A stretch of DNA of 46,039 nt from Bhargavaea cecembensis. GTDB taxonomy: Bacteria > Bacillota > Bacilli > Bacillales_A > Planococcaceae. Positions 4,233 to 35,418 of this stretch are shown here, in pieces (position 1 is the stretch's first letter; every line of letters begins with the position of its first letter). The stretch spans positions 257,862 to 303,900 of the forward strand of contig NZ_LN651372.1 of assembly GCF_000826125.2 (NCBI RefSeq). The letters are read 5' to 3'. The position numbers and the translations under genes were made by a program. Under the pieces are notes generated by a model. It worked only from the letters and a program-made list of their open reading frames with translations. It did no database searches and was not told the DNA's origin.

Positions 4233-4253
4233 GCGTCTGCACCAAAAGGGCTC

Positions 4254-4339
4254 CGCCACTTCCCTACGCCGGTATTGACCGGATCAGGTTCAAAGGGTCG
4301 GATTGCTCCTCTCAGCCGAAACGCGGCACCCCCAGTGAT
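4254..4339 (-). promoter_or_regulatory. TPP (thi-box) riboswitch aptamer
   Basis: Read on the minus strand, the block carries the conserved thi-box elements in order: GGGGGTGC, GGCTGAGA, ACCCTTTGAACCTGATC and CCGG..AATACCGGCGTAGGGA, closed by a CACT/AGTG stem. This is an essentially canonical thiamine diphosphate aptamer. It is followed by a T-tracted terminator and then the SDR gene, the only gene it can control before the convergent terminator at 3374-3415. Confidence 0.96.
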
Positions 4340-4365
4340 CTGTTTCTTTATTTTGCTCAGACTCA

Positions 4366-14650: not shown

Positions 14651-14770
14651 GCTCTAATTGCAAATCCACCGCTCTAATTGCAAATCTCCAACTCTAATTG
14701 CAATTCCACTGCTCTAATTGCAATTCCACCGTTCTAATTGCAATTCCACCGTTCTAATTGCAATTCCGCA
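14651..14770. repeat. Six-unit 20-bp tandem array, TAATTGCAA core
   Basis: Six units begin at 14651, 14671, 14691, 14711, 14731 and 14751 with exactly 20 bp between cores. Each reads like gctctaattgcaaatccacc with variation at the edges; TAATTGCAA is invariant. The core centres on the palindrome TTGCAA (AATTGCAATT in four units). It is the same family as the array at 32361-33180, in the same orientation. It fills most of the 185-nt gap between ecfT and truA, and would be transcribed if the two are co-transcribed. Confidence 0.95.
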
Positions 14771-16468: not shown

Positions 16469-17286
16469 AGACTTTCCACCAACTTCCGTTCCGACATGGT
16501 CTCGTTGATCGTGACGCCCTGCTCCCTCAAAAGAGAAGACAGGCGCAGTGCAAACGGCAGATCGAGGCCGAGCGCCGTCAGTTCGTTCCCGTTTGCGAAT
16601 ACTTCTCTTGGCGTGCCTTCGGCAAACTTCCTGCCCCGGTTCATGACGACGATCCGGTCGGCGAGGAGCGCCTCTTCCAGGTCGTGGGTGATCGAGATGA
16701 CGGAGAGACCCGTCTTTTCCCGGAGTTCCAGGATGACCCGGATCACTTCCTCGCGGCCCTGGGGATCGAGCATCGACGTCGCCTCATCGAGGATGAGCAG
16801 CCGCGGCCTGAGCGCCAGCGCGCCGGCAATCGCGACCCGCTGTTTTTGTCCGCCCGAGAGATGCTGGGGCTCATGGTCGAGGAACCCGTCCATCTTCACC
16901 TGTCCGAGCGCTTCCCGGACGCGGACGGTCATTTCCTCGAATGGGATGCCGTTGTTCTCCAGGGCGAATGCAACATCGTCCTGGACGGTCGCTCCGACAA
17001 ACTGGTTGTCGGGATTTTGAAACACCATGCCCATCTGCGACCGCTTATCCCACAGGTTCTCTTCGGTGAGCGTGTCTCCGAATAGCTCGACTTTCCCTTC
17101 CTGCGGAAATAAAAGGCCGATCATCAATCGGGCGAGCGTCGACTTGCCCGACCCGTTATGGCCGACGACGGCGATCCACTCGCCGGGCTGCATATCAAAT
17201 GAAACGCCGTCCACGGCCATTGGCTTGTCCGGCTCGTCCGGCGTATATGTAAAACGGATGTCGTCCAGGGACAGGATCCGCTGCAT
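16444..17286 (-). CDS. ecfA1: Energy-coupling factor transporter ATPase EcfA1
   Basis: 280 residues. Walker A GHNGSGKST is at 42-50, the Q-loop FQNPDNQFVGATV is the EcfA1 type, the signature is LSGGQKQRVAIAG and Walker B is LLILDEATSMLDP, followed by the His-switch THD. First gene of the ECF group. A 460-bp gap containing two terminator-like hairpins and a 21-bp repeat array separates it from rplQ, so expression may not simply be a continuation of the ribosomal transcript. Confidence 0.95.
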   Translation of the reverse strand: MQRILSLDDIRFTYTPDEPDKPMAVDGVSFDMQPGEWIAVVGHNGSGKSTLARLMIGLLFPQEGKVELFGDTLTEENLWDKRSQMGMVFQNPDNQFVGATVQDDVAFALENNGIPFEEMTVRVREALGQVKMDGFLDHEPQHLSGGQKQRVAIAGALALRPRLLILDEATSMLDPQGREEVIRVILELREKTGLSVISITHDLEEALLADRIVVMNRGRKFAEGTPREVFANGNELTALGLDLPFALRLSSLLREQGVTINETMSERKLVESLWTSRLNG

Positions 17287-17375
17287 TGCAATTCCTCCTC
17301 TGCTCCACTCTGCTGTCTATTCTAACTGAAACCGGGCGGGCTGTCGTCCGGATGCGGCGGCCCGGCGGACGGGGC

Positions 17376-17476
17376 ATTCCGCAACGTTCCCCCTGAGATA
17401 CACAACGTTTCATCTCAGATACGCAACGTCTCACCACAGATACACAACGTCTCACCCGAGTTCCGCAACGTTTCCG
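17376..17476. repeat. Five-unit 21-bp tandem array, CAACGT core
   Basis: CAACGT starts at 17382, 17403, 17424, 17445 and 17466, exactly 21 bp apart. Inner units read like gatacacaacgtctcacc; the outer two are more degenerate (attccgcaacgtt). In three units the core is the palindrome AACGTT. It lies 96 nt upstream of ecfA1. The core has no sequence likeness to the TTGCAA arrays, but the layout is the same. Confidence 0.9.
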
Positions 17477-17510
17477 CACTCTCCCCGGCCGCATCGGGCC
17501 ATTCTTATGT

Positions 17511-17549
17511 AAAAAAAAAGCGCGCACCCCAAACGGTGACTGCGCTTTT
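17511..17549 (-). terminator. Second terminator in the rplQ-ecfA1 gap
   Basis: On the minus strand AAGCGC and CACC pair with GGTG and GCGCTT around a small internal loop, followed by nine T (complement of 17511-17519). Together with the hairpin at 17690-17733 it bounds a 140-nt stretch. Confidence 0.7.
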
Positions 17550-17689
17550 GTCGTATGGGCATATCCGGCGGTTGCTCACACCGCCGGCACCGTGATGGGG
17601 TGCGTAGAGCTAGACGCGACGGCCGCAATGGCTCCGCCCATCATAACACTCTGCTTTTTCATTGACGTATAAATCAAATCAGATAGCGG
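17550..17689 (-). other. Short spacer between two terminators; possible 28-codon ORF
   Basis: The stretch contains a GGCGG/CCGCC hairpin near 17565-17585. On the minus strand an ATG at 17662 opens a 28-codon frame, starting MKKQSVMMGGAIAAVA and ending at 17576. There is no clear Shine-Dalgarno site, so coding is doubtful. It could equally be a small processed RNA between two terminators. Confidence 0.2.
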
Positions 17690-17733
17690 AAAAAGGGGTG
17701 CTGTCCATGCTCAATAAACGGCACGCCCTTTTC
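17690..17733 (-). terminator. Terminator of the alpha cluster after rplQ
   Basis: On the minus strand AAAAGGGCGTGC pairs with GCACCCCTTTTT with one bulged C, ending in a T-tract. It begins 16 nt after the rplQ stop. Confidence 0.8.
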
Positions 17734-17748
17734 CATGCAATCAGTTGA

Positions 17749-18129
17749 TCAGACGAGTTCGATGATGACGACCGGTGCTCCGTCGCCGCGGCGCGGGCCG
17801 ACTTTCATGATGCGTGTGTAGCCGCCCTGGCGGTCAGCGTAGCGTGGTGCCACATCGTCGAACAGTTTCTGGATCGCGTAGACCGTTGTTTCATTGCCTT
17901 CTTCGTCTGTTTTCGAGACGACTTCGCGGCGGATGAATTCTGCAGCCTGGCGGCGTGCGTGGAGGTCACCGCGTTTCCCCAAAGTAATCATTTTCTCGAC
18001 GACGGAACGGAGCTCTTTCGCGCGCGTTTCAGTCGTCTGCAGACGTTCGTTGATGATGAGGTCAGTCGCAAGGTCACGCAGCATCGCTTTGCGCTGGGAG
18101 CTTGTACGTCCGAGTTTTCTGTAGCTCAT
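17749..18129 (-). CDS. rplQ: 50S ribosomal protein L17
   Basis: 126 residues. It begins [24 protein letters not shown], the L17 signature, and ends [17 protein letters not shown]. It is last in the alpha cluster after rpoA, with 48 nt between them, and is followed by a terminator. Confidence 0.97.
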
Positions 18130-31628: not shown

Positions 31629-32099
<471 letters not shown>

Positions 32100-32360: not shown

Positions 32361-33180
32361 ACTGTTGCGAAATCTGCCGTCCTTATTGTAAGTCTGTCTT
32401 TCTTATTGTAATTCTCCGCTCCTTATTTTAAATCTGTCTTCCTTATTGTAAATCTGACTCCCATATTGTGATTCTCCGCTCCTTATTGCAAATCTGTCTT
32501 CCTTATTGTAAATCCGACTCCCATATTGTAATTCTCCGTTCCTTATTTTAAATCTGTCTTCCTTATTGTAAATCTGACTCCCATATTGTAATTCTCCGTT
32601 CCTTATTTTAAATCTGTCTTCCTTATTGTAAATCTGACTCCCATATTGTAATGCGTCGTTCCTTATTTTAAATCTATCTCCCATATTGTAATTCTCCACT
32701 CCTTATTGCAAATCTCCCTCTCTAATTGCAAATTTCCTCCTCTAATTGCAAATCCACTCCCCTAATTGCAAATCCACTCTTCTAATTGCAATTCTCCCTC
32801 TCTAATTGCAAATCCGCTCTCCTAATTGCAATTCTCCCTCTCTAATTGCAAATCCGCTCTCCTAATTGCAATTCTCCTCCTCTAATTGCAAATTCCCCTC
32901 TCTAATTGCAAATCTCCTCTTCTAATTGCAAATCCACTCCCCTAATTGCAAATCCACTCTTCTAATTGCAATTCTCCTCCTCTAATTGCAAATTCCCCTC
33001 TCTAATTGCAAATCCCACTCTCTAATTGCAATTCTCCCTCTCTAATTGCAAATCCGCTCTCCTAATTGCAATTCTCCTCCTCTAATTGCAAATTCCCCTC
33101 TCTAATTGCAAATCCCACTCTCTAATTGCAATTCTCCCTCTCTAATTGCAATCCCCCTCCCTGATCGCCAATCCACTCCC
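32361..33180. repeat. 41-unit 20-bp tandem array, ATTGYAA core
   Basis: The stretch consists of 41 consecutive units with the core in exact 20-bp register and no indel over 820 bp; the first and last units are degenerate. The right half (32701-33160) has the core CTAATTGCAAA or CTAATTGCAAT with C/T-rich linkers, the same family as 14651-14770. The left half (to 32700) is a diverged subfamily (CTTATTGTAAA, CATATTGTAAT, CTTATTTTAAA) arranged as 60-bp triplets; 32521-32580 and 32581-32640 are identical. Nearby blocks in the right half also repeat at multiples of 20 bp (32741-32795 and 32921-32975; 32981-33050 and 33081-33150). Spacers are not unique, so it is not a CRISPR. Confidence 0.97.
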
Positions 33181-33263: not shown

Positions 33264-34586
33264 TCAGAGGATCATGGCGGCGATCCAGCCGAAGAGGATG
33301 AGCGGGATATTGTAGTGCAGGAATGTCGGGACGCATGTGTCCCAGATGTGGTTGTGTTGGCCGTCGGCATTAAGTCCGGCGGTCGGGCCGAGCGTGCTGT
33401 CGGATGCCGGGGACCCGGCGTCTCCGAGGGCGCCTGCCGTCCCGATCAGCGAGAGGATGGCGAGCGTGCTGAAGCCGAATTGGATGCTGAGCGGGACGAA
33501 GATGGCGGCGATGATCGGGATGGTGGCGAATGAGGAGCCGATCCCCATCGTGACGAGGAGGCCGACGAGCAGCATGATGAGCGCGGCGGCGCCTTTGTGG
33601 TCACCGAGCAGGCCGCTTGCGGCTTTGACGAGGGATTCGACGTGCCCGGTCGCCTGGATGACGGATGCAAAGCCGTTCGCCGCAATCATGACGAAGCCGA
33701 CGAATGCCATCATTTTCATTCCCTCATTCAACAGCTCGTCGGCTTCTTTCCAGCGGACCGAACCGGTCACATAAAGGACCGCGATGCCGGCAAGCGCACC
33801 CATGATCATCGAATCGGTGCTGATCTGGGCGGCGAGCGCCGCGGCAAGGGCGAGGACGGTGAACAGGATGTTGCGCGCGGGAACCGGCTTTGCTTCTGGT
33901 CCATCCGCCGTATCGGCCGCATCGTCTGCATAGTCGCGCGGCTTGCGGTAGGAAATGAAGATTGCGACGAGCAGGCCGACCGCCATTCCTCCGACAGGGA
34001 TCGCCATCGCGGCCGGGATGTCCGCCATGTCGATTGTCAGGCCGGCGAGCTGCATCTGATTGAAGAGGACTTCATGGAAGAGAAGGCCGAACCCGACCGG
34101 CAGCAGGATATACGGAGCCGTCAGTCCGAAGGCAAGAACGCATGCAATGAGGCGCCGGTCGATCTTCAGCATGTTCAGGACATGAAGGATCGGCGGAACG
34201 AGAAGCGGAATGAAGGCGATATGGATCGGGATCAGGTTCTGGGATGAAATGGCGATGAGCAGAAGGACGAGGATGACGAGCGCCTTGGCGAGTCCCCTGC
34301 GCTCTTTCTCTCCGCCTTCCCCGACCACTTTCAGGATGAGCCGGACGAGCACCTCCGGGATGCCTGTCTTCGAGATGGCGACGGCAAAGCCCCCGAGGAG
34401 TGCATAGCTGAGCGCGATGGTCGCCCCGCCTCCGAGGCCGTCGGTGAACGCGTCGATCGTTTCATTTATGGACAGGCCGCCCGTCAGTCCGCCGGCCAGT
34501 GCGCCGACTGCGAGCGCCAGGACGACGTTCACCCGGAGCAAACTGAGCACGAGCATGACCGCGACGGCAAGGATGACTGCATTCAT
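33264..34586 (-). CDS. Na+/H+ antiporter family protein (NhaC/CitMHS-like permease)
   Basis: 440 residues and about eleven to twelve membrane helices. The family features are ALLGGFAVAISKTGIPEVLV, SSQNLIPIHIAFIPLLVPP, MGIGSSFATIPIIAAIFVPL and GDAGSPASDSTLGPTAGLNADGQHNHIWDTCVPTFLH, the latter typical of B. subtilis YuiF-type putative Na+/H+ antiporters. Transport activity is inferred from family. The ATG at 34586 with GAGAGTGA upstream was chosen over 34631, since the extension is hydrophilic and lacks a ribosome-binding site. Single-gene unit between the leu cluster and the repeat array. Confidence 0.88.
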   Translation of the reverse strand: MNAVILAVAVMLVLSLLRVNVVLALAVGALAGGLTGGLSINETIDAFTDGLGGGATIALSYALLGGFAVAISKTGIPEVLVRLILKVVGEGGEKERRGLAKALVILVLLLIAISSQNLIPIHIAFIPLLVPPILHVLNMLKIDRRLIACVLAFGLTAPYILLPVGFGLLFHEVLFNQMQLAGLTIDMADIPAAMAIPVGGMAVGLLVAIFISYRKPRDYADDAADTADGPEAKPVPARNILFTVLALAAALAAQISTDSMIMGALAGIAVLYVTGSVRWKEADELLNEGMKMMAFVGFVMIAANGFASVIQATGHVESLVKAASGLLGDHKGAAALIMLLVGLLVTMGIGSSFATIPIIAAIFVPLSIQFGFSTLAILSLIGTAGALGDAGSPASDSTLGPTAGLNADGQHNHIWDTCVPTFLHYNIPLILFGWIAAMIL

Positions 34587-34783
34587 GGAATCACTCTCTT
34601 TTCGCTTTATCGCTTTAGTATGATGAATCAATGAAGTACAGAAATTAATTTATCAGATTCGCAGTCCCGTTGTCAACCGGCGGCGTTTGTTTCCTTCGGG
34701 TTGATCCGGAATTGCCGCATGCTTCCCTCAAGCCGACGGTTTTTGGGAAGGGGGGCCGGTCCCGACCCGCTCCCGTCAAAACA

Positions 34784-34825
34784 AAAACCCGGCAAGCCGC
34801 CTCTCCGGAGGGCTTGCCGGGTTTT
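34784..34825 (-). terminator. Terminator of the ilv-leu operon
   Basis: On the minus strand AACCCGGCAAGCC pairs with GGCTTGCCGGGTT, followed by TTTGTTTT. It starts 9 nt after the leuD stop. Confidence 0.92.
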
Positions 34826-34833
34826 CCCGGAGA

Positions 34834-35418
34834 TCAGGCGTGCTGTTGCTCATACGCCTGGATCTTGTCTTCGTATTTGAAGGTGAGTGCAATTTCGTCC
34901 CACCCGTTCAGGAGCATTTCCTTCCAGTACGGGTCGATGTCGAACCGGTGGACCGTGCCGTCCGATCCGGTCACGGTCTGTTCCCCGAGATTGACCGCGA
35001 TTTCCGCCGGCTCCTCCAGGCCTTTGGCGAGGAGGGAAACGACTTCCTCTTCCGGCAGGCGGATCGGGAGGATGCCGTTCTTCAGGCAATTGTTGTAGAA
35101 GATGTCGGCGTAGCTCGGCGCGATGACCACGCGGAATCCGTAGTCCAGGATGGCCCACGGGGCGTGCTCGCGCGAGGATCCGCAGCCGAAGTTTTCCCGG
35201 GCGACGAGGATCTCGGAGCCCTCAAAGCGCGGATCGTTCAGGATGAATCCGTCTTTCGGCTTGCCGTCGGCGTCAAAACGCCAGTGATAAAACAAATATT
35301 TTCCGAAGCCGGTCCGTTCGATGCGCTTCAGGAATTCTTTCGAGATGATCTGGTCGGTGTCGACGTTGCTCCGGTTGAGCGGCGTCATGATGCTGGTCAC
35401 TTCGTTGATCGGCTTCAT
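34834..35418 (-). CDS. leuD: 3-isopropylmalate dehydratase small subunit
   Basis: 194 residues from the ATG at 35418 (MKPINEVTSIMTPLNRSNVDTDQIISKEFLK), with AAAGGAG upstream. The swivel domain of the LeuCD isomerase: ARENFGCGSSREHAPWAILDYGF carries the loop that contacts substrate, and the NCLKNGILPI block follows. With LeuC it converts 2- to 3-isopropylmalate. Last gene of the operon. Confidence 0.97.
   Translation of the reverse strand: MKPINEVTSIMTPLNRSNVDTDQIISKEFLKRIERTGFGKYLFYHWRFDADGKPKDGFILNDPRFEGSEILVARENFGCGSSREHAPWAILDYGFRVVIAPSYADIFYNNCLKNGILPIRLPEEEVVSLLAKGLEEPAEIAVNLGEQTVTGSDGTVHRFDIDPYWKEMLLNGWDEIALTFKYEDKIQAYEQQHA

Follow-up and report, generated by a model that had tools for sequence, protein, structure and literature searches.

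REP/BIME sequences are short extragenic elements that number in the hundreds per genome and are scarce in gaps between divergent genes. Plasmid iterons are direct repeats of about 20–21 bp, often four or five in number, spaced by about two helical turns. DNA uptake sequence dialects are words that change coherently, at many loci, from one species to another, and minisatellites (VNTRs) consist of head-to-tail units with higher-order blocks and copy-number differences of whole units. The arrays described here resemble each of these systems in the traits just named and differ from each of them in others. Unlike REP/BIME, they consist of tandem phased direct units and belong to many unrelated families. 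Direct repeats of 17–22 bp in phase, the criterion for iterons, are found in the arrays, which, unlike plasmid iterons, are chromosomal, occupy many intergenic gaps and fall into many sequence families. Unlike uptake sequences, their words are clustered in a fixed register, with few isolated copies and with many words per genome. Unlike in minisatellites, the step is common to unrelated families and loci, the core is kept while the linker is free, and the cores are coherent within a species. CRISPR arrays, with their near-identical repeats of about 23–50 bp, unique spacers and Cas genes, are unlike the arrays considered here, whose units total 20–21 bp with cores of 9–16 bp. Full-text searches of the open-access literature found no papers on such arrays.

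The window, the whole stretch of 46,039 bp of the Bhargavaea cecembensis genome that was analyzed, contains a long array upstream of rpsJ (Table 1). The first-pass annotation had described it as 41 units in exact 20-bp register, and no insertion or deletion was found when it was stacked as 41 rows of 20 bp. A loose core pattern gave 38 matches, 20 bp apart in 36 of the 37 spacings and 40 bp apart in the remaining one; the rows at either end are degenerate, and there are about 40 units in all. The array consists of two parts with differing cores. The TAATTGCAA core is confined to the 23 units of the right part, and the (A)ATTGCAA-type core that had been ascribed to the whole array therefore holds for this part only, the left-part cores being ATTGTAA or ATTTTAA. 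The core reads TTGCAATTA on the minus strand, which also encodes both flanking genes. Linkers are pyrimidine-rich, as had been stated (purine fraction of 0.30 on the plus strand), which is a local trait: at some other TAATTGCAA loci of the genome the linkers are G-rich. The suggestion that all cores face one side of the helix is correct only approximately, because 20 bp is close to but not exactly two turns. With a helical repeat of 10.5 bp, successive units at a 20-bp step are rotated by about −34 degrees relative to each other; a step of 21 bp remains in phase.

Tandem Repeats Finder revealed further periods of 40, 60, 100 and 120 bp in the same array. As these higher-order periods indicate, block duplication helped to maintain the register within it. 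Thus, the block amplification that the annotation had offered as an alternative to selection on spacing did occur here (in 60-, 100- and 120-bp blocks), and the register kept inside this one array is weak evidence. Support for selection on spacing comes mainly from elsewhere: loci of the same family with unrelated linkers keep the 20- or 21-bp step, and some shared gaps in other species contain other cores at the same or the sister step. The array lies upstream of an S10 leader, and a weak terminator-like hairpin is located upstream of the array. Rfam matches in the window were limited to this leader and a TPP riboswitch, both outside the arrays. The place in the array set of the GCGCGT-type array at the end of the window is uncertain.

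Table 1. Arrays and neighbouring features of the window
Feature	Positions	Strand	Description
Array, 41 rows of 20 bp	32361–33180	−	between the gene at 33264–34586 and rpsJ
Left part, 16 units	32381–32700	−	plus-strand cores CCWTATTGTAA / CCTTATTTTAA; mainly 60-bp higher-order repeat
Right part, family A, 23 units	32701–33160	−	core TAATTGCAA on plus strand; 100-bp higher-order repeat
Second array of family A, 6 cores spaced by 20 bp	14651–14767	−	between truA and a CbiQ-like gene
Family B array, 5 units, 21-bp step	17377–17471	+	AGATACRCAACGTYTC-type core on plus strand
GCGCGT-type word array	45279–46039		rows at 21, 71 and 121 bp; runs past the window end
rpsJ	31629–31937	−	identified by NCBIfam
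Gene labelled transporter	33264–34586	−	best NCBIfam match weak; no confident family
S10 leader	31953–32050		Rfam
TPP riboswitch	4244–4343	−	Rfam RF00059

The genome of the window (G000, 3.16 Mb) was compared with those of seven other species of the genus (G001–G007); the samples covered 846 kb of G000 and, for G003 and G007, 400 kb per genome. Exact TAATTGCAA-N11-TAATTGCAA pairs are present 110 times in G000 (61 and 49 by strand) and the reversed pattern is absent, so the pairs are not due to chance. In the same search, none of 60 other genomes, seven of them of the same genus, contained an exact pair. Among merged arrays with periods of 10–200 bp in the G000 sample, 84 have a base period of 21 bp and 12 of 20 bp, together 96 of 129 (identical array copies are included in this count and in the grouping, spacing, T/A-run, family B orientation and syntenic-gap counts below). 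A dinucleotide shuffle of the sample yielded 3 arrays of any period. The corresponding numbers are 18 and 7 (25 of 33 arrays) in G003 and 20 and 4 (24 of 38) in G007. Periods of 40 or 42 bp are seen in many other arrays. Extrapolation from the 846 kb gives about 340 intergenic arrays per genome.

The G000 sample contains 39 local repeat pairs of at least 250 bp, nearly all of 100% identity, often about 1 kb long and in many cases adjacent with one base between; none is listed for the G003 and G007 samples, and none lies within the window. Most of these pairs look like assembly errors. The contamination score of G000 is 6.7%. Exact repeats of about 1 kb were noted in L114, L115, L126, L197, L203, L204, L207 and other G000 samples, and a 183-bp unit in seven copies of 100% identity (L123, 18427–19707) is either a real satellite or an assembly error.

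When the 105 G000 arrays with 20/21-bp periods or their multiples were grouped by shared 8-mers, ten groups (of 25, 21, 8, 7, 6, 5, 5, 4, 4 and 2 arrays) and 18 singletons were obtained. The step is the only trait shared by the nine larger families, each of which combines a conserved core of about 9–16 bp with linker bases that are almost free and with a period fixed at 20 or 21 bp. Their main words are TTGCAATTA (family A), AACGTT (B), ATGTTAAG (C), GAGTGAGCC (D), GAGTGT (E/F), ATAGATAG (G), GAATCTAAAG (U), CAATATGG (L) and GGAGTATGG (M). The step was measured over 4–16 loci per family. Family A spacings are 20 bp in 73 cases and 40 bp in 3, and those of family B are 21 bp in 71 cases, 42 bp in 3 and 39 or 40 bp in 5. 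A 21-bp spacing was found in 25 of 25 cases for family C, 30 of 30 for D, 53 of 60 for E/F, 22 of 22 for G and 16 of 16 for U; spacings of 20 bp account for 107 of 120 in family L and 45 of 45 in M. Across loci, the information at core positions is near 2 bits and in linkers mostly 0 to 1, the core conservation being inflated since the loci were found by their cores; the step and the free linkers are unaffected by this. Most exact core matches are clustered, those standing in isolation numbering 2 of 69 for family A, 4 of 63 for B, 2 of 25 for C, 1 of 28 for D, 3 of 39 for M and 0 of 24 for G, but 22 of 46 for family L, where an 8-bp core was tried. By eye, TTGCAA and AACGTT are palindromic, while most other cores are not.

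Judging from these sequence patterns, we see an even chance that the intergenic phased arrays are recognized in trans by sequence-specific factors, most likely proteins, with a role as barrier or anchor that is guessed. Each family would be read by its own trans-acting factor, most likely a DNA-binding protein, which would bind neighbouring sites co-operatively at intervals of about two helical turns. Selection would act on the core and the spacing and would leave the linkers free. The bound stretch might separate transcription units as a barrier that prevents read-through or collision, a guess made from the placement of the arrays; alternatively, it might anchor nucleoid structure. The length of an array changes by whole units, and long 20-bp arrays such as that of the window also grow through block duplication. 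The protein-binding lattice proposed in the first-pass annotation is the likeliest reading in our analysis as well, though no binding factor was found: the 798 called proteins from the sample contained no large DNA-binding group, and the largest group, of 18 proteins, was ABC ATPase-like.

The annotation had named as an adverse outcome that relatives have no array at the locus and the genome no others. Instead, G000 contains many arrays, and the homologous rpsJ gap of G003 carries a 20-bp array with another core, TTATGAATTA. On visual inspection, this gap of G002 and G006 contains short TTTCGTCATT repeats that run in both directions, and no array was seen in it in the other four of the seven species compared. 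In those four, G004, G005, G007 and G001 (L089, L091, L092 and L093), a GC-rich sequence of about 100–150 bp takes the place of the array; it recurs between species (GCGGAGGGTCCGAGACACCTGCGGG and the like, by eye) and is perhaps another dispersed repeat. The truA gap contains 20-bp-class arrays of TAATTGCAA in G000, of TAAGTCCG in G004 and G005, and of TAAGTACG plus GTTACTCCA in G007, where some spacings are 19 or 40 bp. In the gap at 17286–17749, 21-bp AACGTY arrays whose left halves differ were found in G000, G001, G004, G006 and G007. The gap at 34586–34834 has arrays in G005, G006 and G007 and none in G000. Between species, the number of units in one gap differs by whole units (3 to 5 units at 21 bp).

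Arrays tend to be shared between syntenic gaps of more than 100 bp in G000 and G003: 8 gaps have an array in both genomes, 16 in G000 only, 3 in G003 only and 74 in neither (p = 3.6e-4, or 0.0011 without a Noc-like pair, with gap type and length uncontrolled). The Noc-like pair consists of two ATTTCCCGGGAAAT sites about 20 bp apart (L205, 12789–12827, and L140, 1824–1866, in G000 and G003), which resemble Noc-binding sites. Among the other seven shared gaps, one by eye retains family L and one retains ATGTTAAG with a new right half; the remaining five differ more, and in one of them the step class differs. Taken alone, the comparisons of G000 with G007 (2, 7, 2 and 47 gaps in the same order, p = 0.11) and of G003 with G007 (1, 2, 3 and 47, p = 0.21) are not significant.

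The family B core was compared over 36 loci of G000 (83 of 95 pairs) and 20 loci of G007 (47 of 51 pairs). The base preceding CAACGT is A (68%) or G (32%) in G000 and T (82%) in G007. GATA is conserved at 89–100% per base in G000 and is loose in G007; CAACGTYTC is followed by A in 95% of the G007 cases and in 55% of those of G000; at position 11, G000 has C (79%) and G007 has T (74%). At linker positions 10 and 12, the bases are almost random in the two genomes. The G007 family contains sub-forms, and its coherence is incomplete. A species-wise distribution was also observed for the TAAGTCCGAA pairs of family A (up to 2 mismatches), with 23 in G001, 19 in G004, 10 in G005, 1 to 4 in G002, G006 and G007, and 0 in G000 and G003; G001, G004 and G005 are without an exact TAATTGCAA pair. 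Since copying of whole arrays would carry the linkers along and slippage acts on a single locus, a shared trans-acting determinant would be the simplest cause that we see for the coherent cores.

The same data bear on the view that the arrays are neutral, functionless minisatellites produced by slippage and unequal recombination, which inherit their step by block duplication and persist where they are least harmful. The higher-order blocks of the window array and the 40/42-bp periods of many others agree with this view, and tolerance would lead one to expect the avoidance of divergent gaps that is described below. It does not predict that unrelated families and loci have a 20- or 21-bp step in common, with free linkers and kept cores, nor that the family B core differs between species at tens of loci together. 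We consider neutral minisatellites unlikely.

To place the arrays relative to genes, gene limits were taken from hexamer-scored calls; earlier longest-ORF calls had placed many arrays inside ORFs taken for spurious. Identical copies were taken out before counting. Of 99 distinct G000 arrays, 5 are at sample edges and 92 are intergenic by our count; 55 are in tandem gaps, 26 in convergent and 6 in divergent ones. Coding repeats were rejected: just 7 of the 99 overlap called genes, a step of 20 bp is incompatible with coding in a single frame, and several 21-bp cores by eye contain stop codons. Among gaps of more than 100 bp, an array is present in 23 of the 50 convergent ones, in 48 of the 239 tandem ones and in 6 of the 88 divergent ones (p = 1.4e-4 for divergent gaps versus the rest and 2.5e-4 for convergent versus tandem), that is, in 77 of all 377 sampled gaps of this length, or about one in five. 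Per gene 3′ end, there are 0.23 arrays in convergent and 0.20 in tandem gaps. This placement is explained equally well by a role at 3′ ends and by simple avoidance of promoters. The extragenic placement on the 3′ side of genes is shared with the REP/RAYT system, though identity with it was rejected because the RAYT (Y1_Tnp) transposase was found in none of the eight species of the genus, while control searches were positive in 5 of 14 genomes.

Terminators were not enriched near the arrays: they were found in 46 of 78 tandem array gaps of the three genomes, compared to 173 of 271 array-free tandem gaps of more than 150 bp. In the 78 gaps, the hairpin was before the array only in 32 cases, after it only in 11, on both sides in 3 and absent in 32. 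A T/A run was detected near 34 of 97 arrays and 162 of 438 control placements, which is no enrichment either.

Family B arrays have no orientation relative to the gene strand (6 same, 9 opposite), which fits double-stranded DNA as the substrate. For the 20-bp class in tandem gaps of the three genomes, the reference core is on the gene strand in 15 of 17 arrays (p = 0.0023), the reference strand of each family having been set only after inspection of the data. In these strand counts copies were removed by identical sequence only, and without one assembly duplicate the number is 14 of 16 (p = 0.004). In convergent and divergent gaps the class splits 5 to 3 relative to the local majority strand. 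The purine-rich strand is a weak guide to orientation (38 of 59 tandem cases). Since the 20-bp class follows the strand and family B does not, one mechanism may not serve both.

The strand preference in tandem gaps raises the question of whether arrays of the 20-bp class exert their effect within RNA or on RNA polymerase, through overlapping promoters, pausing or read-through control, with the 21-bp class being something else. Promoter-like sites with sigma-A-type −35/−10 hexamers in the window array may point the same way: 14 were found where 2.1 would be expected, and every one of them lies on the minus strand and in the left part. The match concerns TTTACAAT-type units, however, and by eye the TTGCAATTA, CGGAGTATGG and TAAGTCCGAA cores do not fit. 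Given also the choice of reference strands after the data had been seen, the 5 to 3 split in convergent and divergent gaps and the unoriented family B, we regard such transcription-level elements as improbable.

Of 261 genomes of the family, 11 contain three TTGCAA words at 20-bp intervals, namely seven of the eight species of the genus and four others. In 200 kb of Sporosarcina sp. E16_8, 3 of 9 arrays have a 21-bp and 2 a 20-bp period; in 200 kb of G213, which bears the same genus label, there are 3 and 3 of 12. By eye, the cores of both differ from those of the window's genus. A family control of 18 genomes, one per other genus label, and two further Sporosarcina (up to 20 kb each, 378 kb in total) contained 16 arrays; Sporosarcina sp. 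E16_8 accounts for the one with a 21-bp period and the one with a 41-bp period. This control is too small per genome to exclude sparse arrays. When 84,980 species were scanned with one genome per species, a set that may omit near relatives of the window, 55 stretches with the TAATTGCAA pair were found, most of them with a single pair. Stacking of 12 loci revealed multi-unit arrays in Sporosarcina sp. E16_8 and BP05, in Cytobacillus massiliigabonensis and at one locus of Membranihabitans marinus. The C. massiliigabonensis array (L067, 3386–3800, reverse strand) is a long TTGCAAA array with spacings of 19, 20 and 21 bp, and its register is looser than in the genus of the window. In a Desulfobacterales MAG, DeMMO2_10, pairs of GGTAATTGCAAAA are 20 bp apart at L031, L038, L053, L059, L074, L077, L079 and L081; several of them are followed by one similar repeat sequence near contig ends, as if the pairs belonged to the terminus of a dispersed element. 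In viral contigs, five stretches with four TTGCAA words at 20 bp were judged unrelated to the arrays or too few. Two of these stretches (L236, 447–512, and L237, 12328–12393), read on opposite strands, are apparently one stretch in related contigs.

That the arrays are decoys or remains of mobile DNA, either iteron-like sites that titrate plasmid initiators or sites of a transposon-end-like target immunity, is very improbable: arrays of often four or five direct 20–21-bp units recall iterons or Tn7 ends and a species-wise change of cores would suit an arms race, but three A or B stretches tried gave no match in 72,556 plasmids, families B and E/F were absent from viral contigs, where family C was found once in a coding-looking stretch, and the Mu/Tn7-type transposase domain is present in one of eight species, not that of the window. 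Tn7/Mu-type ends were rejected on the same domain (Mu_transpos_C, absent from G000 and detected in G006), for which 14 control genomes also gave none, leaving the sensitivity of the search unproven.

Returning to arrays as sites for trans-acting factors, we tentatively suggest, at less than even confidence, that the genus and at least some Sporosarcina possess an undescribed system of hundreds of arrays in ten or so dialects, each of them read by a fast-evolving sequence-specific factor of its own; the arrays would act as barriers or anchors at the ends of transcription units, with gaps swapping dialects on a kept 20/21-bp lattice. If this reading is true, the arrays would represent an overlooked layer of chromosome organization in a bacterial genus, in which about one in five gaps of more than 100 bp carries a lattice of sites with a species-specific code. 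They would then amount to a natural experiment in which DNA-binding specificity co-evolves at tens of loci simultaneously, and would allow a direct test of what sets the limits of bacterial transcription units.
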